This document shows positions 20,320-53,052 of a stretch of DNA of 64,000 nucleotides, piece by piece (within the stretch, counting starts at the first letter, position 1; every line of letters begins with the position of its first letter). This DNA is from Rhynchopus sp. YZ270_cl-10. Its lineage: Eukaryota > Euglenozoa > Diplonemea > Diplonemida > Diplonemidae. A model generated the notes under the pieces. It was not told the origin of the DNA. It made no database searches and saw only the letters and a program-made list of their open reading frames with translations. A program made the position numbers and the translations under genes. The stretch spans positions 1 to 64,000 of the forward strand of contig OZ037842.1 in the NCBI GenBank assembly GCA_964035575.1, written 5' to 3'.

Positions 20320-20337
20320 TTAAGTTGTTGCTCCTGT

Positions 20338-20378
<41 letters not shown>

Positions 20379-21060: not shown

Positions 21061-21345
21061 AAATCGTTGGTGAAAAAAGGTGAAAAAGGGTGAAAAAAGG
21101 TGAAAAAAGGTGAAAAAAGGTGAAAAGTTTTCAAGCAAAAAAAAAAGTCTTGCCTGTGAAAGTCATAGGGTGCCAATCTCAAGGGCACCCTGTGCACCCT
21201 TTTTTGGGACCAAAAAAGGCACCCTGTGCACCCTTTCTCGGGGGCCAAAAGCACCCTGTGCACCTTTTCAAAATCCAGTTCCGGGGGGTTTCGGGAGAGT
21301 TTCGTGCAGTGGGTTTTCAGGCACCCTGTGCACCTTAGATACCTG
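21061..21345. repeat. GGTGAAAAA tandem run and GTGCAC-motif segment
   Basis: About six copies of GGTGAAAAAA occupy 21069-21128. They are followed by a segment duplicated at 8871-8966 and 9998-10074 and containing GGCACCCTGTGCACC motifs. The segment ends with GCACCTTAGATACC, a string also found near 23709, which marks another diverged copy. Confidence 0.75.
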
Positions 21346-25897: not shown

Positions 25898-28684
25898 CTA
25901 CGACAACAGGGCACCGTAGTCAGCTTCGGTGTACTCGACAAACAAACCTGTCTTTACCTCACACGGAACAGGCATGGGTGCCTTGCCCTCTTCTTCAAAC
26001 TTCTTGATTCTGTGTATCAGTTCCTTGTCGTAACGAGTGCTGGACTCATTCATGTGACCTAGTGCCTCTGTAAACAACCCTGCGTACAGGCACACAACAG
26101 CTCTGTTGTAGGCTGGAAAAGACATGTCCTCATCCTCAATACCCATCTCGTACATCCACTGGTCACATTCTGTTCCGATCTTCCGAAAGGCTTCTTTCAT
26201 TAAAAAATGCTTTGTGCGAGTGGCCTGTACGCGTGCCACGGCTCGTAAATCGAAATCTACTGCATCGCGGCACACGCCTTCGTCGCACAGGTTTGAACAA
26301 CCCCAATCCGTGCACAATCTGAGCGTAGACCACACAAAAGCCTCCGCTTCACCAATAATACCGAAACGCATGAGACTCGGACACCCAACGTTGCCGCACA
26401 TCGCCTTCCCAGACACTGCTGCAGAGACCACATCCAGCTTGTACTCCTTCTTCAGACCCACAACGCATCGCAGGGCCATATTGCAACTCTGAACAGATGA
26501 CTCGGTCGCATTGTACGAAGAATGGACTTTTTCACCAATCACCTCATCCACCACACCGCGGTACTTCGACACACAGCACTGCACAGCCTCCAGATACGAC
26601 GCCATGGTTGTGCTGACTTCTGAAGCGTCTTTTTCTAACAAAAAACCCTTGAAACTTGTTACAACGAGACAGACATCACGCTGTTTCACTCCAGTGGACA
26701 GATTCACAATCTCTCTCCGTTTCTCGGTTCTTGCTGAGTGCATGGATTTCCCGGAAAAGTACGACGACTTTCCCGAAAACGAATGCTCTGTCTCTTTCAT
26801 GCTATATAAATCCTGATCGCTGTCATCATCGTTGTTTTGTGTTTCCTTCAGAAACAGCGACTGCGGCATGTACGCCTTGTACTGGTTCATGCGGCTCACA
26901 ATCTCGATAAACGAAGCCTGGATAGCGTTTGGCGTCTTCAGCTCTTGAAGGTACGCAACCTGGTCCAGCTGCATCGAAGCAATGGCCTTCGCACACCGTG
27001 CAGCCACAACGTTGTCCGCAAACTGCAGTCTGTACGCTTCATTGCTCTTCCGGTACTTGTACACCAGGAACAGGATGACCAGCACTGCAATGGCACCACC
27101 CACCACAATCAGGGCAATGTGCCATCCTTCCAGCGCATCCTCAACCGTCGTCAGCACAGTGGGTGAAACATAAGGCGACATCCCCATCGTCTCACGGTAC
27201 AGGTCGCGCACCTTCTCCAGACCGTTCCGCTCCGCACGGATCAGCCACAGCTTCCTGATCTCCTCCAGGGACTCGTCCACAGTCAGGTTCCCTTCAAGCG
27301 CCTTTGCAAACACGGTGCCCACGTCCAGTGAGAAAAACGGAGCTTCAGGCAACGTCGAGTCTGGGGCGATGTTCTTCTCACCGATGTTTGTGAACCGCAC
27401 AGTCTCAATGAACTGGTCCGCAATGTCCTTGCCCCACTCCTTCTCCCAACCAGGTGCGTACAAGTGCGATGCACGGAACGGCTCAAACGACGCAGACTGT
27501 CTGTCTGTCACCCATTCAGCAGAATTCTTCGGCTCAATCAGATGCGACATGAAATCAAATGTGGCATCAAAGTGCTGTGAGTGTGTTCCGATCAGCAACG
27601 TGTACCCTCCCCCCAGTGCTGCGTACGGTGCATAGTTGACCAACTTCCCAGATCGTCCCTTCACTGCATACGGGCAGCTCGTTTCCGTGCACTCCGTCAG
27701 GTTCTTATCGATATCGACGTGGGTGGTTCCTGGGAATGGAAAGATCCGTGTCCTGTTCGTACCGACACCTGAGTACGTGTTCTCCAAGTAGAAATCACGC
27801 AGGATCCCACCCTGCCAGTTCATAGAGAACGCACACGTCCCGTTCCCCCACCTGATACGCGGAATGTTCATGCCGGATGTCGAGTCTGCGTGTCTGTTGC
27901 ACTCGTTGCCTGTGGCACGTGTGCCTGCCTGCCACACCGCAAGCGCCATTTCGAATCCCTTCCTGAACCCCTCGTGGTCAATCTGGGCCTCAATGGTCAC
28001 AGGGTCAAACCAGATGCCCTGCTTCGGCCCCTTGGTTTGCATGTAGGTTGCAATGAACTGCATCACATACTCACCGTTCACAAGTGTCGTCAGGATGTCA
28101 TCTGTGGGTCCTCTGCACTCACACCACCCACGGTCAGGAATCCCATCTCCGTTCAGGTCCTGTCCGTCCAGGCGCTTCACCATCTCCAGCAGTTCCTCCA
28201 CAGTCTCTGGCTCACTTCCGACCGGGACCAGGTCTTGCCTCCCAAACATCCCAATCAGGCCACCATCAGACGGCATCCCGTAAGTGCGCTTCCGGTACGC
28301 AGAGTTCTGATCACGGTAGAACGGAAGCAGATCATCCCATGCCAGTTTGTCATCACCACGAATCCTGTCCGTCAGGTCACGGATGTGCCCCGAACGTGCC
28401 AGCTGCGGAAGGTCAACTGCAAGAATCATGTACCCATCCTCACCAAACCCACTCTCCGAAGCTGCTGTGATTCTTTTGATGAGTGAGGCTGAGTCGTCAC
28501 GCACAAGCGTCACGTTGCAACCTGTTTCTTCATAAAAGCGTTGCACGTAAGGTCCAAACGGGCGCATTGCCCACTCCGACATCACAATGCTGACCTGCAC
28601 TCCTTCATACTTCCGTGCTGCCTGCACATGTGTTCCGAGCGACAGGAACACAACAAGAACAGCCACAGATCTGGCTAACGTCAT
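25898..28684 (-). CDS. Receptor-like pseudo-cyclase, solute-binding ectodomain (copy 1)
   Basis: Predicted type I membrane protein of 928 aa. Signal peptide at 1-22 (start MTLARSV, chosen because all three paralogues share it; an in-frame ATG 19 codons upstream is not shared). Residues about 27-515 resemble bacterial family 1 extracellular solute-binding proteins, with a D-L-N-G-D-G-I-P-D calcium-loop-like motif and several N-glycosylation sequons. One membrane span at about 521-543 (HIALIVVGGAIAVLVILFLVY) is followed by a juxtamembrane module ending YKAYMPQSLF. The cytosolic half aligns with class III cyclases, but the first metal aspartate is replaced (LVVTSFK in place of VVFTDI) and the Asn/Arg transition-state motif is absent, so catalysis is unlikely. 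This copy has the most diverged cytosolic part. A pyrimidine-rich CACTTCCAG lies just upstream of the start. Confidence 0.9.
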   Translation of the reverse strand: MTLARSVAVLVVFLSLGTHVQAARKYEGVQVSIVMSEWAMRPFGPYVQRFYEETGCNVTLVRDDSASLIKRITAASESGFGEDGYMILAVDLPQLARSGHIRDLTDRIRGDDKLAWDDLLPFYRDQNSAYRKRTYGMPSDGGLIGMFGRQDLVPVGSEPETVEELLEMVKRLDGQDLNGDGIPDRGWCECRGPTDDILTTLVNGEYVMQFIATYMQTKGPKQGIWFDPVTIEAQIDHEGFRKGFEMALAVWQAGTRATGNECNRHADSTSGMNIPRIRWGNGTCAFSMNWQGGILRDFYLENTYSGVGTNRTRIFPFPGTTHVDIDKNLTECTETSCPYAVKGRSGKLVNYAPYAALGGGYTLLIGTHSQHFDATFDFMSHLIEPKNSAEWVTDRQSASFEPFRASHLYAPGWEKEWGKDIADQFIETVRFTNIGEKNIAPDSTLPEAPFFSLDVGTVFAKALEGNLTVDESLEEIRKLWLIRAERNGLEKVRDLYRETMGMSPYVSPTVLTTVEDALEGWHIALIVVGGAIAVLVILFLVYKYRKSNEAYRLQFADNVVAARCAKAIASMQLDQVAYLQELKTPNAIQASFIEIVSRMNQYKAYMPQSLFLKETQNNDDDSDQDLYSMKETEHSFSGKSSYFSGKSMHSARTEKRREIVNLSTGVKQRDVCLVVTSFKGFLLEKDASEVSTTMASYLEAVQCCVSKYRGVVDEVIGEKVHSSYNATESSVQSCNMALRCVVGLKKEYKLDVVSAAVSGKAMCGNVGCPSLMRFGIIGEAEAFVWSTLRLCTDWGCSNLCDEGVCRDAVDFDLRAVARVQATRTKHFLMKEAFRKIGTECDQWMYEMGIEDEDMSFPAYNRAVVCLYAGLFTEALGHMNESSTRYDKELIHRIKKFEEEGKAPMPVPCEVKTGLFVEYTEADYGALLS

Positions 28685-29060
28685 TTTATTTTTGAAAAGT
28701 ACCTGGAAGTGAGTGGTTGTGGAATGAGGGAAAGAAGACACAGACCATACAACAGGAACGTTATTTGTTGTAAATATTAGGGTCGAAGAACCTTGGGCTT
28801 AGGTACATCCATGGATGTCAAAGTACTTGACCCTTTACCTTGTTCGAATTTATTATGGCACTTGAAGTACTTGACCCCCCTTTTTTTCCTCTCAAAATGA
28901 CAGTCAAGGAATCGAAACCAAACCGTTTTTGCCGAGATCGGAACGTGGAGGTGCCGATGGGGGGTGTCTTGCTTGACACATATTTTTTCAAATGTGATTG
29001 AACAATATTAAACCTCCGTGCTGTCTTTGGGAAATAACCTGATCCGCCTTCAGGAAATAA
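28685..29060. promoter_or_regulatory. Upstream region of copy 1 with candidate splice acceptor
   Basis: On the minus strand, CTTCTTTCCCTCATTCC leads into CACTTCCAG about 20 nt before the ATG. The same leader, ACTTTTCAAAAATAAA before ATG, precedes copy 3 but not copy 2. This could be the 3' end of a 5'-UTR intron or a trans-splice acceptor. The remainder is unremarkable intergenic DNA. Confidence 0.4.
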
Positions 29061-29560
29061 AAAATGTTATTTGGAAGGAAAGACGGGTCGAATGGGCGGG
29101 CTAAGAGGTGGAAGCGCTGGTGCACGGGTGGTGCCGTCACGTAGTGTACGTGTGTCCTGGGAGCCGTGCTTGCACCAAAGAGAAGGCAGAGATTGCTGCG
29201 GAAGCCGTCCTGCAGTGCAGCTGGTTGTGGACATGGACACTGCTACGTCTGCTGTGCTTGCAGAGCTGGTGCGTGCCAGGAAACCACCACTTCTGTGAAG
29301 ACAGAGAAGCTCCACCAAAGAACTACTGGACGAGGTGAAGTGTCACCGTGCGCTGTGTGACGATGCGCTCGATGATGCCGACGTGTTCACTAAAAGCATC
29401 CCTTTTCTCGAGTTGCCTGCAACTATGATGTCGCCTAACGAAATTGTGACCAAACTCGAACAGACGTCCAAGGGAACCCGTTTGCAAACCCGGGTGTGCG
29501 TTTGCGGGTTCGCGGGTTTACGGTGGTGCGTTGATAGCACGGTTGTGTTTAGGGTAAAAC
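29061..29560 (+). pseudogene. Coding-like remnant, family unknown
   Basis: Plus-strand sequence with protein-like composition in shifting frames. One frame near 29335-29490 contains CHRALCDDALDDADVFTK and LPATMMSPNEIVTKLEQ; another near 29200-29290 is cysteine-rich. There is no complete frame and no family assignment. It runs into a short diverged GGGTTTGC-like stretch at about 29490-29520. Confidence 0.3.
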
Positions 29561-29850
29561 GGTACACAGAACCAAGAAAAAAAGTTTGTCCACTCTAATG
29601 CATTGCGGTGTAGCACTTGCCACCCAAAGGAGCGTAATAAAGGACAGAGACACCTTGCGACACATGAATTCAAATTCAAATGCTGCGTGATGTATGTCTG
29701 GCGAGAGTGGAAACCCTCGAAATAATTCCTACTTATTTTCAACGGAAAACAGAAACCATGAGGCAAAATATATGGGACGAACAAATTGAGCCCAACAAAC
29801 GAATGCTGCCTGACAGCCTGAGTATAATAGGCTGAGTATTTAAAAAAAAA

Positions 29851-29972
29851 TGGTAGTAGTTGATGCAGGCACCTCCGAATGACTCAACGATGCCAGCCAT
29901 CCGATAAGAGCGCAAGTACCCTGCGCCAACAACAGAAAGTGAAAAGGAAACCTAATGGCTGGCCCGTACGTG
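29851..29972 (-). repeat. SINE-like element, copy 1
   Basis: About 120 bp matching copies at 36845, 56574 and 61921. On the minus strand the conserved core runs from GGATGGCTGGCATCGT through CGGAGGTGCCTGCATCAAC and is followed by a T run. The string GGGTCAGTCGGAGG in sister copies resembles a tRNA A box. Pol III origin is inferred. Confidence 0.65.
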
Positions 29973-30209
29973 TGAACGGGGGCACAACCGCTCGTCGGCG
30001 GCACCTTATGCTGAGTTGTGAGCTGGCAAGTACTCCCGTTCGCTGCACCCAACGCTAGCAGTGCACGATTATTGAGAAGAGAGGGGGGCACAGGGACAAT
30101 ATCTCTCTTCGCTTCCCATACTGTACGGCATACTGTACCGACAGTGGGCCTTCTGGAGGGATACATGGACATGTGGCCTGGAACAGCAGACTACGAGGTT
30201 TTCTAGGAT

Positions 30210-32999
30210 TTACAAATCAGCGTAATGGTCTTCGGTGTACGACACAAGCAAACTCTTCTTCACCTGACAAGGAATGGGCAACGGTGGTTCGCCAGAGAGC
30301 TGGAACTTCTCGATTCTCTCTGAAAGTTCCTTATCATTCGGTGTACTGGAGTTGTTCATGTGAGAGGCTGCCTCGTCAAACTCACCGGTGTAGAGACACG
30401 TGACAGCCTCGTTGTACGCGCCGTATACCTTCTCCTGCTCCTGCTTGTCCATCTCGTACATCCACTCGTCACATTCTATTACCAGCTTCCGAATCGCTTC
30501 CCTGACTAAGAAATCCGTCCCTAGACTGACCTTGACACGTGCCACAGAACGCAACTCAAAGCTGAACCCATCGCGGCACACGCCTTCGTCGCACAAGTTT
30601 GTACAACCCCAATCCAATGCCAGTCTGTGTACAGACCACACCAGTAACTCCGGTTGACCAACAATACCGTAACGCATGAGGCCTGTGCACCCAACGTTGC
30701 CGCACATCACCTGCCCAGACACTGCTGCAGAGACCACATCCTGCTTAAACTCCTTCTTCATGCCAACAACGCATTGCAGGGCCATGCTCCCATGCTGAAT
30801 TGACGGCTGTGTAGTGTTGTACGAAGAATGGACCTTGTCTCCAATCACCTCATCCACGATCCCGCGGTACTTCGACACACAGCACTGCACAGCCTCCAGA
30901 TACGACGCCATGGTTGTGCTGACGTCTGCGGCAGCCTTGTCAATTAGTGACTCCTTCAAACTTGTTACTACGAGCGACACCTTCCGCTTCTTCACTTCGG
31001 TGGACAGATTCACCTTCTCTCTGTGGTGTGCGAGACTCCGCGAGACAGAGGAGTGACCCCTTGAGTCCTGTGAAGACTTCACAGAGTTACTAACCGTCTT
31101 GCTATATTCCCGGCCACTAAAGCTTTTCTCCTGCTCCTTCCCCTCCTCGCTTGATGTTTCCTTCAGAAACAGCGACTGCGGCATGTACGCCTTGTACTGG
31201 TTCATGCGGCTCACAATCTCGATAAACGAAGCCTGGATAGCGTTTGGCGTCTTCAGCTCTTGAAGGTACGCAACCTGGTCCAGCTGCATCGAAGCAATGG
31301 CCTTCGCACACCGTGCAGCCACAACGTTGTCCGCAAACTGCAGTCTGTACGCTTCATTGCTCTTCCGGTACTTGTACACCAGGAACAGGATGACCAGCAC
31401 TGCAATAGCACCACCCACCACAATCAGGGCAATGTGCCACCCTTCCAGCGCATCCTCAACCGTCGTCAGCACAGTGGGTGGAGCATAAGGCGACATCCCC
31501 ATCGTCTCACGGTACAGGTCGCGCACCTTCTCCAGACCGTTCCGCTCCGCACGGATCAGCCACAGCTTCCTGATCTCCTCCAGGGACTCGTCCACAGTCA
31601 AGTTCCCTTCAAGCGCCTTTGCAAACACGGTGCCCACGTCCAGTGAGAAAAACGGAGCTTCAGGCAACGTCGAGTCTGGAGCAATGTTCTTCTCACCGAT
31701 GTTTGTGAACCGTACAGTCTCAATGAACTGGTCCGCAATATCCTTGCCCCACTCCTTCTCCCAACCAGGTGCGTACAAGTGCGATGCACGGAACGGCTCA
31801 AACGACGCAGACTGTCTGTCTGTCACCCATTCAGCAGAATTCTTCGGCTCAATAAGATGCGACATGAAGTCAAATGTGGCATCAAAGTGCTGTGAGTGTG
31901 TTCCGATCAGCAACGTGTACCCTCCCCCCAGTGCTGCGTACGGTGCATAGTTGACCAACTTCCCAGATCGTCCCTTCACTGCATACGGACAACTCGTTTC
32001 TGTGCACTCCGTCAGGTTCTTATCGATATCGACGTGGGTGGTGCCTGGGAATGGAAAGATCCGTGTTCTGTTCGTACCGACACCTGAGTACGTGTTCTCC
32101 AAGTAGAAGTCACGCAGGATCCCACCCTGCCAGTTCATAGAGAACGCGCACGTCCCATTCCCCCACCTGATACGCGGAATGTTCATGCCGGATGTCGAGT
32201 CGGCGTGTCTGTTGCACTCGTTGCCTGTGGCACGTGTGCCTGCCTGCCACACCGCAAGCGCCATTTCGAATCCCTTCCTGAACCCCTCGTGGTCAATCTG
32301 GGCCTCAATGGTCACAGGGTCAAACCAGATGCCCTGCTTCGGCCCCTTCGTTTGCATGTAGGTTGCAATGAACTGCATCACATACTCACCGTTCACAAGT
32401 GTCGTCAGGATGTCATCTGTGGGTCCTCTGCACTCACACCACCCACGGTCAGGAATCCCATCTCCGTTCAGGTCCTGTCCGTCCAGGCGCTTCACCATCT
32501 CCAGCAGTTCCTCCACAGTCTCTGGCTCACTTCCGACCGGGACCAGGTCTTGCCTCCCAAACATCCCAATCAGACCACCATCAGACGGCATCCCGTAAGT
32601 GCGCTTCCGGTACGCAGAGTTCTGATCACGGTAGAACGGAAGCAGATCATCCCATGCCAGTTTGTCATCACCACGAATCCTGTCCGTCAGGTCACGGATG
32701 TGCCCCGAACGTGCCAGCTGCGGAAGGTCAACTGCAAGAATCATGTACCCATCCTCACCAAACCCACTCTCCGAAGCTGCTGTGATTCTTTTGATGAGTG
32801 AGGCTGAGTCGTCACGCACAAGCGTCACGTTGCATCCTGTTTCTTCATAAAAGCGCTGCACGTAAGGTCCAAACGGGCGCATTGCCCACTCCGACATCAC
32901 AATGCTGACCTGCACTCCTTCATACTTCCGTGCTGCCTGCACATGTGTTCCGAGCGACAGGAACACAGCAAGAACAGCCACAGATCTGGCTAACGTCAT
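30210..32999 (-). CDS. Receptor-like pseudo-cyclase, solute-binding ectodomain (copy 2)
   Basis: Paralogue of 929 aa with the same layout: signal peptide 1-22, solute-binding ectodomain to about 515, span at about 521-543, juxtamembrane module to about 633, then a Ser-rich variable linker and a cyclase-like domain from about 665. The ectodomain differs from copies 1 and 3 at only a few positions that I can find, for example PYAPPTVLT where copy 1 has PYVSPTVLT. The linker after QSLFLKET is unrelated in sequence. The cyclase-like part lacks the first metal aspartate (LVVTSLK) but keeps the VIGDKV aspartate. Predicted cell-surface sensor without catalytic activity. Its upstream sequence differs from copies 1 and 3. 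Confidence 0.9.
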   Translation of the reverse strand: MTLARSVAVLAVFLSLGTHVQAARKYEGVQVSIVMSEWAMRPFGPYVQRFYEETGCNVTLVRDDSASLIKRITAASESGFGEDGYMILAVDLPQLARSGHIRDLTDRIRGDDKLAWDDLLPFYRDQNSAYRKRTYGMPSDGGLIGMFGRQDLVPVGSEPETVEELLEMVKRLDGQDLNGDGIPDRGWCECRGPTDDILTTLVNGEYVMQFIATYMQTKGPKQGIWFDPVTIEAQIDHEGFRKGFEMALAVWQAGTRATGNECNRHADSTSGMNIPRIRWGNGTCAFSMNWQGGILRDFYLENTYSGVGTNRTRIFPFPGTTHVDIDKNLTECTETSCPYAVKGRSGKLVNYAPYAALGGGYTLLIGTHSQHFDATFDFMSHLIEPKNSAEWVTDRQSASFEPFRASHLYAPGWEKEWGKDIADQFIETVRFTNIGEKNIAPDSTLPEAPFFSLDVGTVFAKALEGNLTVDESLEEIRKLWLIRAERNGLEKVRDLYRETMGMSPYAPPTVLTTVEDALEGWHIALIVVGGAIAVLVILFLVYKYRKSNEAYRLQFADNVVAARCAKAIASMQLDQVAYLQELKTPNAIQASFIEIVSRMNQYKAYMPQSLFLKETSSEEGKEQEKSFSGREYSKTVSNSVKSSQDSRGHSSVSRSLAHHREKVNLSTEVKKRKVSLVVTSLKESLIDKAAADVSTTMASYLEAVQCCVSKYRGIVDEVIGDKVHSSYNTTQPSIQHGSMALQCVVGMKKEFKQDVVSAAVSGQVMCGNVGCTGLMRYGIVGQPELLVWSVHRLALDWGCTNLCDEGVCRDGFSFELRSVARVKVSLGTDFLVREAIRKLVIECDEWMYEMDKQEQEKVYGAYNEAVTCLYTGEFDEAASHMNNSSTPNDKELSERIEKFQLSGEPPLPIPCQVKKSLLVSYTEDHYADL

Positions 33000-34079
33000 G
33001 TTGTACTAATTTCAAAACCTGAAAATTGCCTGGAGTGAGCAGGTTGTGAAGAAACCGGAGAAAAGATGCGCACGCAAACAGTGTCGCATCGGGAGCGGTG
33101 GCGAGTGGCCAGAAAACGAAGGGGTGCTGTATTTGTTTAAGTTTGTAGGCACACGCAGTGTCAGAAATATGTTGATAGACTTTGTTTGTGGGGGGCAATA
33201 AAACATACGGCAGGTAAATCGAAGTCTCGCTCAATAAGGAGCAAGAAAAGGTGGAGCCAAGATACCCTGTTTGTGTCGCAGTGATCCAACTCAGCTCAGA
33301 AAAGTCGCAAACAATAGTGTTCGCAATAGTACAGGTGCGGAATGCAAGATTGGTTTCTTTGATCATCTTCACAATGTGAATAGTAAGTATTTTCACAAAT
33401 AAAGAAATGTCAAGATCCAAGTAACATTGCCCCAAGCTTCGGTTTGCTGGGTTCTGATTCTATTCGGCCCGCAAAATTGATCTTGGATCCTGCCACTTGA
33501 TCACACATAAAAAGTTGAAAATAACATGTGGCCGTGGAACTCACGCAAACATCAAAAAGAGAAAAAAAATGTGGACAAAAAAGAGACGTGGACACTTCCC
33601 TCTTCAAAGTAACTTCTCAATCGAAGCTAACTTCACATCGCCCAAGAGTACACCGTTTCGTTCAGATAAAATACAAATGGTTGTAAGAGACACAACGCCT
33701 ACAATAAATACACACACAAAGACAAAAAGAAAGCAGAACAACGAAAAGCGCACAAAGAAACGAGACACGTGTCAGGTGAACCGAAGGAAGAAAAGTGGTA
33801 GATACAATGGCCATATGACCGTTGTTTGTGCGCACGACGTAAAAACCCTTCATGGGGGTATTTTTACAGCAGACGCCCATTGACTTCTTTGTGACAATTG
33901 CTACATCTTCACGGGGTAGTGCAGTGCCGAAATCGTCTATCAGTCGGATTTACGAATCTTTGAAACGTACAAACAATAACAAAATACAAATATCGCGAAA
34001 TAAAGTCACCTACACAGTAGCCAGGTCCAGATGAGATCAAGGTGGGAGAGCAAAGAGGGAACAATGTTTATTCCGACCA

Positions 34080-34205
34080 CATAAATGTTTGTAGAAAAAT
34101 GAGCCCGGTCACTAAAAGGAGCGGCCATTTTCATCCAAAATTTTCTAAAACCCTGGTCCAGATTGTAATATTGACCTCCCCTGCATCGATTTTCAATACA
34201 CCACC
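34080..34205. repeat. Dispersed repeat related to 36650-36785
   Basis: Shares an ordered series of blocks with the segment at 36650: ATGAGCC, CCATTTTC, CCAAAATT, CCTGG, TTGACC and CATCGATTT-CAATAC. Sequence between the blocks has diverged. Part of an old repeat family of unknown class. Confidence 0.55.
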
Positions 34206-35710
34206 CTGGGTTGTGACCCTGCGAGAAAAACAAAAATTTTCTCGTACGACGACGATGCGTCGGAGCCTGTGAAGTGTAACCCTTGTTGCGGGGTAGAATA
34301 TGAAAAATGGCGCCGCAGGCAAAAAAAAAATTAAGGTACAACCTGCGTGTGGGATTTCTTGGTGGTAAGTTCCGGTCAGTTCCGAACCCAGGTCCCCATG
34401 GGGAACTGGGCTTTTGGCATCCCACCTTGCTGTCCCACCTGGTAGCCACCGTGTAGGCCAACAGGGTGCTGTATAGCATCTGCACGCTGCGGTACAAAAT
34501 TATTTCCTTTTTTTTTTTTTTTCAAAAAAATATATCATCAGTACATCACTAAGATAGGTACCGCACAACAACAAAAAATCTGAAAAAAAGAAACCCCCCC
34601 CCCCGGTGATGATGTAAGATGAACTTAATAAAAACAAACAGTATTACGTGGCGTGGTCATGTGAGGAATAAATGAAGCCGCACGGTAAACCAAAACGGGG
34701 TGCATTCACCAGCATCCGCAAAAAAAAAAGAAGTCTGGAAAAGGGGCTGTGGGGTGGGCAAGTGCGTTTGCGTCGGGTCTGCTGTACGTCCAAGTGCTGT
34801 GTGGTTAAGTTGAGAATAAGCAGGGGAACTCCAATTTACAAATTCCTGTCCTTACTATTTAACAAACAGTAAGCATTCAAGGAAACCCCTATTTACAAAA
34901 AAAAAAACCCCACATAGAAAATACAGAGAAAAACACTCAACGTGACTGTCCTTTGTGAGGAGTTCGCAATACCTTCACAAAAATGATTAAGATATTCTTT
35001 TCAATCGAAAGATGGAGTTTTGTCCACCAGCGTCGTCTCCTCTTTTCTTCACAAAAAAAAAAAAAGAAAGAAAGAAAGATTCTTAGAAAGAAAGAAAAGA
35101 AAAGAAAAGAAGAGAAGTGCAAACACCTCACAGTTCTCTGCGGGTTATCGAACAGAGAGCACTTCATTGGGAAGCACACGGCTACCACGAGGGAGGTTGT
35201 AAGCAAAGAAAGAAAATGTTACCCCGAAAAACGGAACTGTTTATCTTTTACGGAAATGCGCTGACAAAGGCTGGCAACAACATTTCCAAAGAGGACCACT
35301 TTCGGAGAAAAAATCGGATTTTTTGGGATTAGTGTTGCTGCCATGTATGACAGTCTTCACTGTATTTTTTTGCTTTTGTGTTGAGTGGATGCGTGACTGT
35401 CTACCTATGGGATTAGTATGGATGTTTTCATCACCAGGACGCAGGTACATCCACCCCTGTCTGACGTACAACGTGCAGACATCCTCCAGAGGAGCAGAGG
35501 GGAAATAAACTACAGGGGGGAAAGGGGAACAAAAAAAAAACAACCCTGATATGGTAAGTGAAAGGGAAAAAGGTTTTTTCGTTGATCGCTCAATTACCCT
35601 GTCGGGCGGTTGGCGACCGTATCGAAGGAACTATTTCTCCTTTGAGCTACGCTTTGCAGGTACAAAACAAAAACACGTAAAATGTGCCTCACAAAAAAGT
35701 TGGTATGACA

Positions 35711-35734
35711 TGAGCCTCTCTCTGTGCTTAGTCA
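35711..35734 (+). repeat. Stem-loop family member
   Basis: TGAGCCTCTCTCTGTGCTTA followed by GTCAC. GAC/GTC and AGC/GCT can pair around the shared CTCTCT loop. See the family entry at 56063. Confidence 0.5.
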
Positions 35735-35935
35735 CAAACTTTCTCTGGCACAAAGACACAATATTCCGTTTCAGCAAAAAAACGAGAATGCCGTGCTGCA
35801 CGGTAAAATCAAGGCTATCTCTGAAAGCGCAGTAACCGGGTTCCGCGGGAAAGCACTTCAGAGCACAAAGAAAGAAAAAATAAAGTAAAGACAGGGCAGG
35901 GAAGAAAGGAAGGGGAAAGAGAGGAAGAATAGAAG

Positions 35936-35962
35936 GATGAATGTGCCTCGTCGTGCACACGT
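35936..35962 (+). repeat. Stem-loop family member with altered stem
   Basis: GATGAATGTGCCTCGTCGTG followed by CACACG. Here TGTGC pairs with GCACA, replacing the CTAAGC/GCTTAG stem seen at 56073, while GATGAA and the CTC-rich loop are kept. Confidence 0.5.
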
Positions 35963-36649
35963 CTAATCAAAACCTTGCTGTAATTCGAAGGAACACGGGA
36001 CGGAAAAGGCCCTTGTTTTTAGTGAGACTGCATAGTGATGCATCTATGGTAATCGAAGGGGGTCCAGAAAAATTACTTCAACGCAGATAGGATGTGCTGA
36101 TAGTAAGCTTCGAAATATCTTTCCGGAATGTGTGCAATAAATTGGGGGGAAACAATGTAACTTGAGATCAATGAAGGGCGATATGGACCGTAAGGGCACA
36201 GCAAGTAAATAATACGCTGTGCTTGGACCACTGCCTTCGTGTGTAACTTTCCGTGGCAAAGTTAAGTTGGTCGCATGTGTCCATGGTACCGGGCTGCATC
36301 GTGACATCGCTACTTACCATTGAGCCATGGGCCCATTTGGGTGGCAAAACACCTGCAAAACCCGGTCTTGCCCAAAAATGTTTGTAAGACGTCGGACACA
36401 GGCAAACAAAAAAAAGTTAATGCGATGACCCTCAGTTTCTCTCGCTTAGCCACCTTCATTTTTTTATAGAAAAAAAATAAGTTCTTCTCTTAGCAACTAG
36501 TTGTTTTCACTGTTGTTGTTTTCCACGCACCTTCCTTCAACCCCTGCAGGATCAGTTGTTATTTATAACCTGAAATAACACATCTCAAGGGAACAAATTA
36601 AAAGGGTCCTTATTTGCATTTTTGGGATTCACCGCCCGTGCAGTGGTGG

Positions 36650-36785
36650 GGTCGATGTTGAAAATTGGACAATTTTTTGACTGGAAATATGAGCCAGTGG
36701 CCCATTTTCGGCCAAAATTGTCCTCAAAATCCTGGGTTTGTAATTGACCCTTTAACCCCCACCCACATCGATTTCAATACTATAC
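36650..36785. repeat. Dispersed repeat related to 34080-34205
   Basis: Same ordered blocks as the segment at 34080. In addition, GTCGATGTTGAAAATTGG at the left end is an imperfect inverse of the CATCGATTTCAATAC end, so the unit may have terminal inverted repeats. Confidence 0.55.
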
Positions 36786-36844
36786 CTTACTTCACCTTCG
36801 TTTACCCTTACAGGGGGTGAAGGAAGGTTGTGGAAAACAAAAAA

Positions 36845-36968
36845 AGTAGTTGATGCAGGCACCTCCGACTGACCCACGTACGATGCCAGCCATCCGATAA
36901 AAGCACAAGTACCCTGCGGCCTACAACAGTAAATGTAAAAAGGAAACCTAATGACTTGCCCGTACCGT
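36845..36968 (-). repeat. SINE-like element, copy 2
   Basis: Best-preserved copy. On the minus strand it ends GGTGCCTGCATCAACTAC followed by seven T, a canonical Pol III terminator, and contains CGTGGGTCAGTCGGAGG, which resembles an A box. Confidence 0.7.
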
Positions 36969-37510
36969 AAGAGAACGAGGAAAATAATAGAAACGTTTTG
37001 TTGCGCTGCGACAACATCTGTCACATTTTATCTTCGGCTACCATATTTCCATGCACGTTAAAGCTTGGTTCTGCGCCTTGACCGCGGGTTTGAGAACAAG
37101 GCACAGTCAGTGTATTGTGCAAGCCTGTTTGAGGCGCACACTACTACTACTTTGGTACTCGAAAAGAAGGTCCGCAAAGACGCCTGCTGGGTGATGTAAA
37201 GAGAAAAGCAAACAGTGCGACACTCAGGTGAATGCTACACTGACGTGCACAAACGTGCACAGTGCACAAAATGCATTTGCAATTTTTTAACAAAAAACCA
37301 ACAATTTCGTTCAGTACCTACGCATCAAAAAAGGGGCTCGTTTGTGAAGGAAAGATTCGGGATCAAAAAAGCAAATAAAATACCGCACAGGCACCTAGAA
37401 ACTCTCACATGAAACAAAAAAATCTGTAAGCGAGTGCTTGCTGAATCAAGTAAAAGTGAACACAAAAAAAAGAAAAAAAAAAGCGTTTGTCAAATTGACA
37501 CAAAATATAT

Positions 37511-37640
37511 TTATTGAGGTGATCCAGTGCGCACTTTTTCTCGTTTTTTATCGTTTTTTCGCTTCTGATAACACTTGTTCACACTTTTTTCTCATTTTTC
37601 ACGGATGTGAAAAAGTGCGCGCTGTATCACCTCAATGATA
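37511..37640. repeat. Foldback element, about 130 bp
   Basis: Left arm TTATTGAGGTGATCCAGTGC then GCACTTTTTC; right arm GAAAAAGTGCGCGCTGTATC then ACCTCAATGATA. The arms are about 30 bp and nearly complementary around a T-rich centre. MITE-like, no coding content. Confidence 0.85.
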
Positions 37641-37660
37641 TAAAAAAAAGAACCCTTGAA

Positions 37661-37690
37661 AAGATGAATATGCCTCTCGTGCACACATAT
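37661..37690 (+). repeat. Stem-loop family member
   Basis: AAGATGAATATGCCTCTCGT followed by GCACACATAT. ATATG/CATAT and TGC/GCA can pair around CTCTCGT. Confidence 0.5.
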
Positions 37691-38151
37691 ATATAAAAAG
37701 TAAAGAAGAAATACAAAAAGGAAGAACACATCAACACAGTCTCACAAAAAGAAATCAACCCTCGTCGCGAACTTGTTGGTCTTACAAGGATTCGACACAA
37801 GTGATTGATACACTTTTTTTTGTTTTGTTTTGAAAACTTGGTTGTATTAGTGTAGACACCCGAGGATGAACTCCACTATATAAGTTTTGTTTTGTTTTGT
37901 TTTGTTTTGTTCAATACAAAAAAAGTGAATACTTAAAAGATGACCCAGCCCGCAAAGTCACCTTTAAAAAAACACTTAAAACTTGGGAAAGACACAGGTT
38001 CCTTCCGGCCAGCCTAGAGCTAGTCCTTTTGAAAGTCCAGCCATGTAACACTACACCTGGCAGAGAGCTAAAGAACGAGACGTCAAGTACCTAATGAAAA
38101 TATTTTAGACTCTTTCGCAACGTCGTATCGCATTAAAATAAACGAAAAGTA

Positions 38152-38185
38152 GTGACGCAGCCTCTCTCATGCTTAGTCACCGAAC
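38152..38185 (+). repeat. Stem-loop family member near the 3' end of copy 3
   Basis: GTGACGCAGCCTCTCTCATG followed by CTTAGTCAC, about 70 bp beyond the stop of the pseudo-cyclase copy 3. GTGAC pairs with GTCAC. In the transcript of that gene it would lie in the 3' untranslated region on the opposite strand sense. Confidence 0.5.
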
Positions 38186-38241
38186 CAAAGAAGAAAACAT
38201 CAAAAAATGAAGGGTGTAGAAAAAATGAAAACATAAGAATC

Positions 38242-41040
38242 TCATAGCCCATTGTAGTCAGCATCGGTGTACATGACGTCCAAAGCCTTCTTCATCTCAC
38301 AAGGAACTGGGGTGGGTGCAGCTACCAGTTGTTGGAACTTCTTGATCCTGGCGGTCAACTCATCGTCGTGATCTGTGTTCGAGTCGTTCATGTGGTTCAA
38401 CGCGTTGTTAAACTCACCAATGTAGAGACACGTGACAGCCTTGTTGTAGGCATGATAGCGGTTGTCCTGCTCCTGCTTGTCCAGCTCGTACATCCACTCG
38501 TCGCATTCGGTTTCGATCTTCCGCATCGCTTCCTTCATCAAAAAGTCTTTCGTGAGGTTCGCCTTCACACGTGCCACGGTGCGCAACTCGAAGTTCAACC
38601 CATCGCGGCACACGCCTTCGTCGCACAAGTTTCCACAACCCCAATCCAATGCCAGTCTGTGTACAGACCACACAAATAACTCTGGTTGACCAATAATACC
38701 GTAACGCATGAGGCCTGTGCACCCAACGTTGCCGCACATCACCTGCCCAGACACTGCTGCAGAGACCACATCCTGCTTAAACTCCTTCTTCATGCCAACA
38801 ACGCATTGCAAGGCCATGCTCCCATGCTGAATTGACGGCTGTGTAGTGTTGTACGAAGAATGGACCTTGTCTCCAATCACCTCATCCACGATCCCGCGGT
38901 ACTTCGACACACAGCACTGCACAGCCTCCAGATACGACGCCATGGTTGTGCTGACGTCTGCGGCAGCCTTGTCCATTAGTGACTCCTTCAAACTTGTTAC
39001 TACGAGCGACACCTTCCGCTTCTTCACTTCGGTGGACAGATTCACCTTCTCTCTGTGGTGTGCGAGACTCATGGTTGCTGTCGTTGAACGTGACTTCTTC
39101 GAATGCTGCGAAGACTTTGAAAGGATCGACGCAGGTCCCCTCGAGCCGCTGCCACGATCCTTCGCAAGGCTGCTCTCCTCCTCAGTAGAATCATCTACAT
39201 CGTTCACAAACAGCGACTGCGGCATGTACGCCTTGTACTGGTTCATGCGGCTCACAATCTCGATAAACGAAGCCTGGATAGCGTTTGGCGTCTTCAGCTC
39301 TTGAAGGTACGCAACCTGGTCCAGCTGCATCGAAGCAATGGCCTTCGCACACCGTGCAGCCACAACGTTGTCCGCAAACTGCAGTCTGTACGCTTCATTG
39401 CTCTTCCGGTACTTGTACACCAGGAACAGGATGACCAGCACTGCAATTGCACCACCCACCACAATCAGGGCAATGTGCCATCCTTCCAGCGCATCCTCAA
39501 CCGTCGTCAGCACAGTGGGTGGAGCATAAGGCGACATCCCCATCGTCTCACGGTACAGGTCGCGCACCTTCTCCAGACCGTTCCGCTCCGCACGGATCAG
39601 CCACAGCTTCCTGATCTCCTCCAGGGACTCGTCCACAGTCAGGTTCCCTTCAAGCGCCTTTGCAAACACGGTCCCCACGTCCAGTGAGAAAAACGGAGCT
39701 TCGGGTAACGTAGAGTCTGGGGCGATGTTCTTCTCACCGATGTTCGTGAACCGCACAGTCTCAATGAACTGGTCCGCAATGTCCTTGCCCCACTCCTTCT
39801 CCCAACCAGGTGCGTACAAGTGCGATGCACGGAACGGCTCAAACGACGCAGACTGTCTGTCTGTCACCCATTCAGCAGAATTCTTCGGCTCAATCAGATG
39901 CGACATGAAATCAAATGTGGCATCAAAGTGCTGTGAGTGTGTTCCGATCAGCAACGTGTACCCTCCCCCCAGTGCTGCGTACGGTGCATAGTTGACCAAC
40001 TTCCCAGATCGTCCCTTCACTGCATACGGGCAGCTCGTTTCTGTGCACTCCGTCAGGTTCTTATCGATATCGACGTGGGTGGTGCCTGGGAATGGAAAGA
40101 TCCGTGTCCTGTTCGTACCGACACCTGAGTACGTGTTCTCCAAGTAGAAATCACGCAGGATCCCACCCTGCCAGTTCATAGAGAACGCACACGTCCCGTT
40201 CCCCCACCTGATACGCGGAATGTTCATGCCAGATGTCGAGTCTGCGTGTCTGTTGCACTCGTTGCCTGTGGCACGTGTGCCTGCCTGCCACACCGCAAGC
40301 GCCATTTCGAATCCCTTCCTGAACCCCTCGTGGTCAATCTGGGCCTCAATGGTCACAGGGTCAAACCAGATGCCCTGCTTCGGCCCCTTCGTTTGCATGT
40401 AGGTTGCAATGAACTGCATCACATACTCACCGTTCACAAGTGTCGTCAGGATGTCATCTGTGGGTCCTCTGCACTCACACCACCCACGGTCAGGAATCCC
40501 ATCTCCGTTCAGGTCCTGTCCGTCCAGGCGCTTCACCATCTCCAGCAGTTCCTCCACAGTCTCTGGCTCACTTCCGACCGGGACCAGGTCTTGCCTCCCA
40601 AACATCCCAATCAGACCACCATCAGACGGCATCCCGTAAGTGCGCTTCCGGTACGCAGAGTTCTGATCACGGTAGAACGGAAGCAGATCATCCCATGCCA
40701 GTTTGTCATCACCACGAATCTTGTCCGTCAGGTCACGGATGTGCCCCGAACGTGCCAGCTGCGGAAGGTCGACTGGAAGAATCATGTACCCATCCTCACC
40801 AAACCCACTCTCCGAAGCTGCTGTGATCCTTTTGATGAGTGAGGCTGAGTCGTCACGCACAAGCGTCACGTTGCACCCTGTTTCTTCATAAAAGCGCTGC
40901 ACGTAAGGTCCAAACGGGCGCATTGCCCACTCCGACATCACAATGCTGACCTGCACTCCTTCATACTTCCGTGCTGCCTGCACATGTGTTCCGAGCGACA
41001 GGAACACAGCAAGAACAGCCACAGATCTGGCTAACGTCAT
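38242..41040 (-). CDS. Receptor-like pseudo-cyclase, solute-binding ectodomain (copy 3)
   Basis: Paralogue of 932 aa with the same layout as copies 1 and 2. Ectodomain differences I can see include ILPVDL for ILAVDL and LTDKIRG for LTDRIRG. After QSLF the linker is acidic then Ser/Arg-rich and unlike the other copies. From REKVNLSTEVKKRKVSLVV onward it closely matches copy 2. The first metal aspartate is missing and the second (VIGDKV) is kept. The C terminus ends in the family pattern Y-T-x-A-D-Y. The 5' leader matches that of copy 1. Likely role: surface ligand sensor signalling through dimerisation rather than catalysis (inference). Confidence 0.9.
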   Translation of the reverse strand: MTLARSVAVLAVFLSLGTHVQAARKYEGVQVSIVMSEWAMRPFGPYVQRFYEETGCNVTLVRDDSASLIKRITAASESGFGEDGYMILPVDLPQLARSGHIRDLTDKIRGDDKLAWDDLLPFYRDQNSAYRKRTYGMPSDGGLIGMFGRQDLVPVGSEPETVEELLEMVKRLDGQDLNGDGIPDRGWCECRGPTDDILTTLVNGEYVMQFIATYMQTKGPKQGIWFDPVTIEAQIDHEGFRKGFEMALAVWQAGTRATGNECNRHADSTSGMNIPRIRWGNGTCAFSMNWQGGILRDFYLENTYSGVGTNRTRIFPFPGTTHVDIDKNLTECTETSCPYAVKGRSGKLVNYAPYAALGGGYTLLIGTHSQHFDATFDFMSHLIEPKNSAEWVTDRQSASFEPFRASHLYAPGWEKEWGKDIADQFIETVRFTNIGEKNIAPDSTLPEAPFFSLDVGTVFAKALEGNLTVDESLEEIRKLWLIRAERNGLEKVRDLYRETMGMSPYAPPTVLTTVEDALEGWHIALIVVGGAIAVLVILFLVYKYRKSNEAYRLQFADNVVAARCAKAIASMQLDQVAYLQELKTPNAIQASFIEIVSRMNQYKAYMPQSLFVNDVDDSTEEESSLAKDRGSGSRGPASILSKSSQHSKKSRSTTATMSLAHHREKVNLSTEVKKRKVSLVVTSLKESLMDKAAADVSTTMASYLEAVQCCVSKYRGIVDEVIGDKVHSSYNTTQPSIQHGSMALQCVVGMKKEFKQDVVSAAVSGQVMCGNVGCTGLMRYGIIGQPELFVWSVHRLALDWGCGNLCDEGVCRDGLNFELRTVARVKANLTKDFLMKEAMRKIETECDEWMYELDKQEQDNRYHAYNKAVTCLYIGEFNNALNHMNDSNTDHDDELTARIKKFQQLVAAPTPVPCEMKKALDVMYTDADYNGL

Positions 41041-45467: not shown

Positions 45468-48400
45468 CTATTGGATTGTTGGCTTTACCCTTTCGCGGGA
45501 ACCACCAGTGTGTTCCTCCAAGAACTCGCACACGAGGCCCATGGTACGGTCACCCTCGACGTGCAGGTGGGCGGAAATCAGTTTGTAGTTAGACTCGGTG
45601 AAGGCAACGGTGTACTCTTCGCCCCACAGCCAGTCTTGCTCGTCGCCCTTCAAGAAGTCCATCTGGTACACGGTCAGCTGCTCGGACAGAGACGACGAAA
45701 TGTGCAAACGGCTGACAGGCCGGATGACCCCCTGCATCATGTGGTCCGTCAGCAGCGACAGCTTCTGTGAATACGAAGCAACGCACGCAAAACACTTGAA
45801 GTGCTCCGCCTCCAGAACCAGCGAATGTGCAATGTTGATCGGCGTCCCCACAACAGTCATGAACTTCTGCGATCCTGTCCCAACCATGCCACACACAACG
45901 CTGCCGGCGCATATCCCCATCGCCGCTGAGTAGCCGTGCTTCAAGAAGTGCTCCTGAGACAACTCAACAAAGCGAGACGCCAACAGCATGTGCGACCCAA
46001 CGTTCTGAGTGGGGACAGTGTTCCACCCAACAATAAGGCTCGTGTTGTGTGCAGCAATGACATTGCCCTTGGTTCTTTCCAGGTGCACGAGAACAGAGTT
46101 GAATGCACCCGAAAGCATCTCCGCAGTTTCGCCCTCGAAGGCATCGACGAAGCTCATGTCCATGCAACACACTGTTGCGCTTGCAACAACGCTGAAGGAG
46201 TTTGACGTGCCACGGTCGCCAAAGGAGCGCACAGTTGTTGTGTCACAGAAGGGGTTCTTCCCTGGCGAGCCTGCCAACTGCTGGCGTGCCTGTGGGCGAG
46301 CAATCTGCCTTTCGTGGAGGTGCATCAACACATCCTCACGCCTGCCTTCCAGTGTGCGTGGCAAAAGGATCGACAGGTCGTGTGTGCCGCTGAATCCCTT
46401 TAGCGTGGTGTTAGGCAGCTCTACAATGACAAGCTCCTTGTACTGGTCACGGTCCTCCTGCAGCTTCTCCAGCACGCCCCCAGCAACACACACAGATCCT
46501 CCCACACCAGCCGCTTCGAGCCGTGCCGCCTTGTTCACAGTTGAGCCAAAGTAGTCCACACGCCCTGTGAGGGTGTTCGTCTCTGTACTCACCGGCCCAC
46601 TGTGGATCCCGATGCGCACGCGAAGACCCTTCCAATACGAGCCGATCTGCCTACTGGCAGGGTGCGTGTGCAGGTTCGGTGGCCACAGCTCGCTCTGCAG
46701 AAGCGCAAACTGGAAGTCAAGCGCAAACCTAAGCGCCTGATGGTCTGTGTCGAAGGTCACCATAAACGCGTCGCCAATGGTTTTGACCTCGTACCCGTTG
46801 TTCTTCACAATTGCCTTGCGTGCAAGGGTGTTGTGGATGTTCAGCGCTGTCTGCATGTCGTTTGCAAAAGACTCCCACAACTCCGTTGAGCGCTGAATGT
46901 CAGTGAAGACGACAGCAGCAAACTGTGTGTCCAGCCCTGGGGCAAACCTGTCGGGGGGGAAGTTGCCGCTGTCTTCGAGAGATTCGCAGTGCTTGGCAAG
47001 AAGGGAGCGTGGGAGGTAGCGTTTGTACTCAGCAAGGTTGTCGATGATCTGGATGAAGGAGCTGACAATCTCGGAGGGGTTCTGTATGTCACGTATATCC
47101 TTCAGGTCCTCAAGCTGCATGCGTGCGATGCTGGTTGCGCACCGCATTGCGACTGCTGTCTCTGAGTGTAGTTCTGTGATCTTCGACCTGTCGCGAAGCA
47201 CTCGTGTGCACACTAGCGGGACTGCAATCACCAGCACGCCACCGACAATCGCCGATACGATAATCGCAATCAGGATGTTTGAACTCTCATCCTCGAGAGG
47301 GCAGTGAACGTTCCCAAAGCCAGAGTTCGTGTAGCCGCTCGGGCAGGGCGTGCACGAGGAGGCACCTTCCTCGGAGAAGGTGTCCTGTGCACACTCCGTA
47401 CACTCCGCAGCACCGTCCTCTGCGCTGTATGTGCCGGCAGGACACTTCGAGCATTCCTTCACACCTTCGACAATGTCGGTTACGTTTGAGTACATCCCAG
47501 CCAGGCAGGGGTGGCACTCAATTCTATAGGACGGAATCGTTTGGTTGATGTCCTCCACGTAGCGCGTACCACTGGGGCAGGCATCCCCAAAGTGGCTGAG
47601 CTGGCCCACGTCGGTGATGCCCTCAACGAGATACGTCATGTTCACCTGCAGGTAGTAGTCATCGATGCACGTAGCGTTCAGCTCCTGCTGCACAAACTTG
47701 CCTTCATCGTTCCAGATGGGGTAACAGAACGGGTCCCACCCGCCCTTCAGCTTTTCCACCGACTCTTCGAACAGGGAACGTGTATCGGAGCTCACACGGA
47801 AAGAGGGGTCGTAGTTCACAGACACGCCACTAGGGTATCCGTACCAAATGCCATGGTTCCCGTCGCGGAAGTTCCCCGTGTAGGAGCGGTTAATCATCTC
47901 CTTGTAGATTGGACCCCAGTTGAAGTTGGACGACGTCAGGACAGACTCCCCAATGAACTTCCTCCCATCTGTGTTCGCAGCCACGCTTGTGATGTTCACC
48001 TCTTTCGCGTACTTGGAGCCCTCCTGCGTGTTGGTGTGGTATGCAATGACATCGCACCCAAGCAGGTGCATGCGGCGTGCTGCCTCGCGCTCCTTCACAG
48101 GGTCGTAGAAGGTTCCGATCCACATCACCACCACGTCCACTTTGTGCTCCACGTATGTACTGTTCACAATGGCACCGGCACCCACCTGCGCACCGAGGTA
48201 GAAAGCGTTGGCAGACCTGTACACCTCAGCGATGGGGAGGGACGAGATGTAGGAGACGCGGTTCGTCTTCGTCTCGCCGCCTGCCACCACACCCGACACG
48301 TACTTGCTGTGGTACACACGTCCATGCGCAGTGGCGAAGTTGTCGAGACCTGAGTGGTACCCTGTCATGTGCACAAAGTCCATATTCGGGTGGGAGCGTG

Positions 48401-48779
48401 CTGCAGCAAAGGTCTGGTCGTGGTATGTGAAGGACGTGCTGAAGACCATGTCGTAGCCGTCTGCACTGATCTGCCCCATGAGGTCTAATGCGTTGCCGGG
48501 CTCAACGTTCTCGAAGATCTCTGTCCTCAGCGAGTCGCCCCGATCCACCATGTACGGCCGCAGCTCATCGTGTGCCCGAATGCGCCCTTCGTTGTGGGTG
48601 TACGACCACCCGAAGTCCGAGATCACTCCGTTGTACAAGAACGCAACCTTGAATTCTCTGCACAGCACTGCTGGGAGGAGCAGGATGCCCAGCAGTGCGG
48701 GGTACATAGTCGTCATGCTGCCGCCAAAAGGAGCGACAAAACAACAAAACACCTGATGGGTTGTGGTTGTGGTGGCCAT
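45468..48779 (-). CDS. Receptor adenylate cyclase with Bmp/PnrA-type ectodomain
   Basis: Predicted to make cAMP at the inner membrane face in response to an extracellular ligand. 1103 aa from the ATG in a CACCATGG context; an ATG 12 codons upstream is possible. A hydrophobic leader (MYPALLGILLLPAVLC) precedes a basic-membrane-protein-type periplasmic-binding domain (KVAFLYNGVISDFGWSYTHN) to about 345. A cysteine-rich repeat follows at about 418-490 (CPAGTYSAEDGAAECTEC), then a span at about 501-525 and the family juxtamembrane module ending YLPRSL. The class III catalytic domain keeps metal aspartates D627 (VVFTDIQ) and D670 (KTIGDAF), adenine-specifying K666 and D742, and an Asn/Arg motif (STVNKAARLE), so it is an adenylate rather than guanylate cyclase. 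A second, degenerate cyclase domain follows, lacking the second aspartate. No intron is needed. Confidence 0.92.
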   Translation of the reverse strand: MATTTTTHQVFCCFVAPFGGSMTTMYPALLGILLLPAVLCREFKVAFLYNGVISDFGWSYTHNEGRIRAHDELRPYMVDRGDSLRTEIFENVEPGNALDLMGQISADGYDMVFSTSFTYHDQTFAAARSHPNMDFVHMTGYHSGLDNFATAHGRVYHSKYVSGVVAGGETKTNRVSYISSLPIAEVYRSANAFYLGAQVGAGAIVNSTYVEHKVDVVVMWIGTFYDPVKEREAARRMHLLGCDVIAYHTNTQEGSKYAKEVNITSVAANTDGRKFIGESVLTSSNFNWGPIYKEMINRSYTGNFRDGNHGIWYGYPSGVSVNYDPSFRVSSDTRSLFEESVEKLKGGWDPFCYPIWNDEGKFVQQELNATCIDDYYLQVNMTYLVEGITDVGQLSHFGDACPSGTRYVEDINQTIPSYRIECHPCLAGMYSNVTDIVEGVKECSKCPAGTYSAEDGAAECTECAQDTFSEEGASSCTPCPSGYTNSGFGNVHCPLEDESSNILIAIIVSAIVGGVLVIAVPLVCTRVLRDRSKITELHSETAVAMRCATSIARMQLEDLKDIRDIQNPSEIVSSFIQIIDNLAEYKRYLPRSLLAKHCESLEDSGNFPPDRFAPGLDTQFAAVVFTDIQRSTELWESFANDMQTALNIHNTLARKAIVKNNGYEVKTIGDAFMVTFDTDHQALRFALDFQFALLQSELWPPNLHTHPASRQIGSYWKGLRVRIGIHSGPVSTETNTLTGRVDYFGSTVNKAARLEAAGVGGSVCVAGGVLEKLQEDRDQYKELVIVELPNTTLKGFSGTHDLSILLPRTLEGRREDVLMHLHERQIARPQARQQLAGSPGKNPFCDTTTVRSFGDRGTSNSFSVVASATVCCMDMSFVDAFEGETAEMLSGAFNSVLVHLERTKGNVIAAHNTSLIVGWNTVPTQNVGSHMLLASRFVELSQEHFLKHGYSAAMGICAGSVVCGMVGTGSQKFMTVVGTPINIAHSLVLEAEHFKCFACVASYSQKLSLLTDHMMQGVIRPVSRLHISSSLSEQLTVYQMDFLKGDEQDWLWGEEYTVAFTESNYKLISAHLHVEGDRTMGLVCEFLEEHTGGSRERVKPTIQ

Positions 48780-53000: not shown

Positions 53001-53052
53001 AGAGGAATAAGGGCGGGACCGGGACTGGGAGGGAATCACTCAGGTCGCTCAT
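50045..53052 (-). CDS. Receptor adenylate cyclase with Cache-like ectodomain; two exons proposed
   Basis: Predicted cAMP-producing sensor. A short cytosolic N terminus leads to span 1 at about 40-66, an extracellular region of about 350 aa with Cache-like sensor features and several N-glycosylation sequons, span 2 at about 418-447, and a juxtamembrane helix ending EYKSFLPQVIF. The class III domain keeps D539 (VVFTDIEGST) and D582 (KTIGDAF), K578 and D643 for adenine, and PTVNRAARI. A second cyclase-like domain lacks the metal residues. The frame would end six codons after TDSP inside GGTAAGTAGGG, a good 5' splice site. Splicing from 50151 to TCTTTTTCAG at 50062 adds only five residues and a stop at 50045. 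The small second exon is inference; exon 1 is firm. Confidence 0.88.

Follow-up and report, generated by a model that had tools for sequence, protein, structure and literature searches.

Three putative non-catalytic receptors with solute-binding ectodomains and a C2-type class III cyclase domain in the diplonemid Rhynchopus sp. YZ270_cl-10

In the window analysed here, the first 64,000 nucleotides of contig OZ037842.1 (assembly GCA_964035575.1) of the diplonemid Rhynchopus sp. YZ270_cl-10, we found three receptor genes, A, B and C, with uninterrupted frames, all on the minus strand. Their class III cyclase-like C-terminal domain, as well as that of their kin, is named PsC in this study. The active site of class III cyclases is shared between two chains, one contributing Asp1 and Asp2 and its partner contributing Lys, Asp, Asn and Arg. 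The genes and their parts, including the solute-binding-protein (SBP) ectodomain, the transmembrane (TM) span and the juxtamembrane (JM) module, are as follows.

25898..28684, minus strand: receptor A (signal peptide, SBP ectodomain, TM span, JM module, linker, PsC, tail)
26162..26707, minus strand: PsC domain of A, Ser677; Glu718 replaces Asp2
30210..32999, minus strand: receptor B (signal peptide, SBP ectodomain, TM span, JM module, linker, PsC, tail)
31440..32933, minus strand: SBP_bac_8/SBP_bac_1 ectodomain of B, sugar-binding ABC protein fold
31371..31439, minus strand: single TM span of B, by eye
31167..31370, minus strand: JM module of B, common to active receptor cyclases
31014..31166, minus strand: Ser-rich linker of B, diverged between A, B and C
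30468..31013, minus strand: PsC pseudo-cyclase domain of B, Ser680 instead of Asp1, Asp2 retained as Asp721
30213..30467, minus strand: C-terminal tail of B, starting at the EWMY motif
38242..41040, minus strand: receptor C (signal peptide, SBP ectodomain, TM span, JM module, linker, PsC, tail)
38500..39045, minus strand: PsC domain of C, Ser683, Asp724

The open reading frame of A as listed extends from 25898 to 28741 with a GTG start, and the in-frame ATG at 28684 gives an N-terminus that matches B and C. The signal peptides and TM spans of all three were assigned by eye. Pfam placed SBP_bac_8 and SBP_bac_1 in each ectodomain (E 2e-9 to 6.9e-9, above cut-off and in agreement with the fold), which probably binds a small solute, with a sugar as the predicted ligand; no cyclase model was matched in the Pfam scan of the three proteins. 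The layout proposed in a preliminary description of this DNA, an SBP ectodomain joined through a single span to a cyclase-like domain, was thus borne out by the open frames and by the Pfam matches. That description had also called the cyclase domains pseudo-enzymes. The replacement of VVFTDI by LVVTS was seen in all three receptors and the Asn/Arg motif positions were indeed gone, while the IGD motif, said to be kept, was present in B and C and read IGE in A.

To place these changes in the family, we compared 24 PsC domains, 22 from this genome and two from EukProt, of which 23 reach the later Asn/Arg motif. The Asp1 place is held by N (15 domains), S (5), H (2), A or Y and is never acidic; Asp2 is D in 23 of 24, with E in receptor A of the window. 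Among the 23 domains that reach the Asn/Arg motif, a single one retains Asn and none retains Arg. Taken together, the loss of Asp1 (24/24), Arg (23/23) and Asn (22/23) supports the pseudo-enzyme reading at the level of sequence. We also noticed an EWMY or QWMY motif in 23 of 24 domains, the 24th being a piece that ends earlier. The same pattern of replaced Asp1 and kept Asp2 was found in five of five further loci (L058-L062) and in one piece of locus L024.

The reference for this domain is provided by the active-type cyclases of the genome, in which the class III cyclases are greatly expanded: at least 150 matches were found (the best 150 of 493 candidates), all above the Pfam cut-off. We picked 32 C1 open frames by the FTD motif in the loci read, so that Asp1 is intact by selection and the other five residues are not selected. 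The C2 motif was passed by 19 of the 32, and L020, L027, L030, L036 and L037 were added as their C2 then aligned, giving 24 tandems; the frames outside the 24 were L015 (C2 by eye), L017, L021, L012 (second frame cut), L033, L034, L035 and L038. In L017, L021 and L019 a C1 but no C2 was seen within the open frame. All 24 tandems have a C1 with the six catalytic residues, followed by a degenerate C2, in which Asp2 is lost in 24/24, Asn is present in 2/24 and Arg in 3/24. By hhalign, C2 showed no link to C1 (0.2%), and a sequence search with C2 recovered only one protein besides the query itself, meaning that C2 is hard to find by sequence words. Its class III nature follows from the AlphaFold2 model of the JM-C1-C2 part of L044 (mean pLDDT 81.2, C2 block means 71-94, pTM 0.51) and from the C2 part of the tandem profile, which matches residues 278-419 of soluble adenylyl cyclase (sAC), presumably its second domain, and OaPAC-type cyclases.

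The cyclase kinship of PsC was visible only through a family profile. None of 13 single members matched PF00211 at E<=1, whereas the profile of the 13 domains, a search suggested in the preliminary description, matched class III cyclases of known structure (PDB entries 2w01, E 1.9e-13; 6fht, 3.7e-11; 3r5g, 6.4e-11). Within this class PsC stands with C2 and not with C1. The hhalign probability was 97.4 (E 1.4e-11) against C2 and 41.9 (E 2.7e-4) against C1, and an earlier, smaller sequence set gave 96.5 and 5.4; likewise, the hidden Markov model (HMM) of C2 scored a median of 28.3 bits on PsC, in comparison to 1.2 for the C1 HMM and -0.4 for the C2 HMM on shuffled PsC. On the hhalign and HMM scores we reject the idea that PsC arose by decay of a C1 like those of the neighbouring genes. 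By its sequence PsC is kin of C2, though no plain C2, since Asp2, lost in every C2, is kept in all but one PsC. The predicted model of PsC shows the order beta-alpha-beta-beta-alpha-beta, though with pLDDT block means of about 52-75 for residues 671-760.

Receptors A, B and C thus have the binding-protein ectodomain, the one TM span and the cytosolic class III domain of euglenozoan receptor-type adenylate cyclases, and lack an intact catalytic domain. On these sequence comparisons we regard them as euglenozoan receptor cyclases without C1 that retain a C2-type class III domain, and consider it very probable that they are non-catalytic C2-type receptors.

The family extends far beyond the window. 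A search with receptor B gave at least 49 matches (49 scored of 786 candidates); 16 of them include the SBP part, one of these being SBP only, and the other 33 cover the TM/JM-PsC part alone. Two PsC queries gave 127 and 124 rows, with a union of 185 PsC-like loci, few of which were read as sequence. In the first query, 107 of the 127 rows begin at query residue 1 or 2 (counted by eye), that is, the JM end is joined directly to PsC, which leaves no room for a C1 in those loci; moreover, among the matches listed, none of the 185 lies within 1.2 kb of the 150 C1 loci. A view of the receptors as dead local counterparts of the enzymes next to them does not hold: PsC is C2-type, and the three genes make up a minor share of an extensive family. 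Other ectodomains also occur with PsC. That of L056 is dCache-like, with an E of 5e-5 that falls short of the Pfam cut-off, and L024 has a 5'-nucleotidase C-terminal-like one (E 4.8e-10), located in a separate open frame just upstream of the PsC piece (L024:5020-7501). The frame split in L024 may be an intron or a frameshift, and this PsC piece adjoins an active-type C1-C2 cyclase. Two EukProt transcript proteins, P0006 and P0009, which may be from one species, have the same C1-less architecture, with best identities of 58% and 56% to the 16 genome loci compared, which suggests, from the sequences, that this receptor type is not private to this genome. The open frames, the family and the transcript relatives rule out chance or artefact.

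The PsC domain appears to be maintained. Its dN/dS was 0.11-0.38 in 10 of 11 pairs and 0.61 in the pair L045-L046, which suggests a non-catalytic domain conserved by purifying selection rather than decaying, with the caveat that gene conversion lowers or mixes such values. Signs of exchange were found both in the window and outside it. Between A, B and C the synonymous divergence (dS) is 0.036-0.061 for the ectodomain, TM span and JM module and 0.34-0.73 for PsC, and the flanks do not align. For L044 and L047 (G000:C5), both C1-C2 receptors, the opposite was seen: dS is 1.08 from the ectodomain to the JM module, and the rest is nearly identical at 0.029. These alignments are most simply read as recurrent conversion or exchange, the borders of which lie close to the TM-JM region and the linker. 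In addition, the active-type L044 and the PsC receptor L042 are 95% identical over 628 residues of ectodomain and JM module. Active and dead outputs thus carry nearly the same sensor.

Two active-type receptor cyclases, referred to as the 45.5-kb and the 50-kb gene, are located in the same window.

45468..48815, minus strand: active-type receptor cyclase (Bmp/PnrA-type ectodomain, ephrin-receptor-like repeats, TM span, JM module, C1, C2)
46347..46919, minus strand: intact C1 of the 45.5-kb gene; degenerate C2 within 45471..46181
50143..53052, minus strand: active-type receptor cyclase, with intact C1 at 50929..51456 and degenerate C2 within 50146..50766

The preliminary description had taken both for intact cyclases sharing the JM module of A, B and C. 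Each has an intact C1, but in both it is followed by a degenerate C2 of its own; the common JM module is clear between A, B, C and the 45.5-kb gene, while the 50-kb gene has a looser version (by eye). Pfam names no JM domain in either gene.

The reading that we favour, with a probability of roughly 0.4 for the mechanism as a whole, is that PsC receptors pair with active receptors as ligand-set decoy or regulatory subunits. The SBP ectodomain would sense a small solute, for which a sugar is predicted; the ectodomain together with the JM module would enable pairing between a PsC receptor and an active one; and the C1:PsC pair would form two incomplete active sites, because the class III site draws its residues from both chains. 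In this way PsC receptors could lower or gate the cyclic AMP (cAMP) output according to ligand. A PsC receptor that carries the ectodomain and JM module of an active one would be a natural decoy, and pairing, put forward in the preliminary description as a hypothesis of heterodimerisation with the active enzymes or their titration, gains indirect support from L044 and L042, an active and a PsC receptor that share both parts. In excerpts of the literature, trypanosome receptor cyclases are reviewed as dimer-forming (PMC6027212; PMC4561360), and a dominant negative form of ESAG4 has been used (PMC4509711).

Several observations weigh against this proposal. The pairing of either C2 or PsC with C1 gains no structural support from this analysis, as the two domains of the L044 model are not arranged like C1 and C2 of sAC or AC9 (Foldseek root-mean-square deviation, rmsd, 17 to 21 over 392-508 columns; 14.0 over 311 residues against AC9 9u3u), and an intramolecular C1:C2 pair as in sAC is likewise not supported by the geometry of this model. 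The PsC region itself is poorly modelled, with pLDDT block means below 50 over residues 758-856. Six of the eleven PsC pairs have dS >1, which, together with gene conversion, blurs the dN/dS values. A close genomic association between PsC and active C1 genes is not supported either; the two are only weakly near, with 30 of 185 PsC-like loci within 50 kb of a C1 locus (about 18 expected if uniform) and 17 within 25 kb (about 9 expected). This count covered 150 C1 rows of 493 candidates and 125/127 first-query plus 60/124 second-query PsC rows; the second pieces of two split loci were left out of the former, and one second piece and the rows repeating first-query loci out of the latter. Finally, the conserved Asp2 is not needed for decoy action, and its conservation suggests that PsC does more than block, e.g., that it binds nucleotide.

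This last point leads to the main rival, which we consider possible though doubtful: PsC homodimers may bind nucleotide or metal via Asp2 and act as ligand-gated scaffolds that signal through the EWMY tail, independently of cAMP synthesis. It is favoured by the presence of Asp2 and of EWMY/QWMY, each in 23 of 24 domains, across SBP, dCache-like and nucleotidase-like ectodomains, by the 128 of 185 PsC-like loci that lie within 50 kb of another one, and by 6yii in the Foldseek fold list, the entry title of which describes a class III adenylyl cyclase-like ATP-binding protein; however, receptor A has Glu at Asp2 and Asp1 is lost throughout. Partnership with the C2 of active receptors instead of C1 would agree with PsC being closest to C2, and with a C2 that mostly cannot complete the C1 site; PsC would then free or misplace C1 and alter its activity in trans, a mechanism that seems to us improbable. 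As to catalysis by PsC through an alternative metal ligand, conservation of Asp2 and of the hairpin around it could be explained in this way, but with no acidic residue at the Asp1 place in any of 24 domains and no Arg in any of 23, it is very hard to credit. Hardly any weight is left for A, B and C as decaying relics: the loss of Asp2 in A fits this idea, but the open frames, the low dN/dS, the conserved motifs and the like receptors P0006 and P0009 among the EukProt transcript proteins do not.

The matched pair of L044 (active) and L042 (dead) makes the role of dead paralogues testable. The PsC receptors would form a receptor pseudo-enzyme family at the scale of a sensory repertoire, which may tune the many active cAMP-making receptors. 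It is a more speculative and rather unlikely extension that over 100 ligand-sensing pseudo-cyclase receptors, their ectodomains gene-converted onto active and dead outputs, set cAMP responses combinatorially via mixed pairs.

Among known systems, the receptors described here resemble the trypanosomatid receptor-type adenylate cyclases GRESAG4/ESAG4, which are euglenozoan and have a large periplasmic-binding-type ectodomain, one TM span and a cytosolic class III domain; by sequence as well as by fold, the C1 found here comes nearest to GRESAG4.1/4.3. The differences are the ectodomain of SBP_bac_1/8 (sugar) type, the C2 added in the active receptors, and, in A, B and C, the missing C1 and the dead domain. 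Receptor cyclases are numerous in trypanosomatids, where little is known of their ligands and logic, and these enzymes have one cytosolic cyclase domain. Excerpts of PMC6027212 agree with the single domain, and those of PMC6337498 call the number of these cyclases a mystery and contain nothing on dead ones. In the titles and abstract openings of open-access PMC papers among the matches listed, with subscription papers outside the scope, there was no description of this dead receptor family. Human sAC (ADCY10) similarly has two class III domains in one chain; however, its C2 supplies catalytic residues, in contrast to the C2 found here, with its few Asn and Arg. The closest solved sequence to the PsC profile, the cyanobacterial guanylyl cyclase Cya2 (2w01), is named as an enzyme in its entry and keeps Asp1 (TSDL), where PsC has VTN or VTS. 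The Pseudomonas aeruginosa protein 6yii was compared by Foldseek alone, with the C1-C2 model, and its TM-score was low (0.26-0.27).

The Rfam scan of the window gave no family above its threshold. A spliced-leader exon pattern had 736 genome matches with at most one mismatch and none for the reversed control, which firmly supports the assignment to Euglenozoa. The fuller leader exon in the window, CCAACGATTTCTAAAGCTACAGTTTCTGTACTTCATTG, resembles the Diplonema leader, which makes a diplonemid likely. This exon (21033-21070, minus strand) lies upstream of a reverse-transcriptase element on the same strand (11217-20947, minus strand). No GT intron start follows the exon, as if the trans-spliced RNA of the element had been copied back, or as if the element targeted leader genes. 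The start of the contig, possibly a subtelomere, consists of about 154 copies of GGGTTTGC (window 1-1230) and then of a 379-bp repeat (1225-2777), and near-perfect tandem arrays of 7-bp and 13-bp units are located at 7956-8828 and 21344-22183, respectively. Further along, the window encodes a protein whose weak match to Pex24p narrowly misses the Pfam cut-off (53927-55588) and, at 60835-63998, a repeat protein rich in Pro and Thr that looks mucin-like by eye, adjoining a small single-TM protein.
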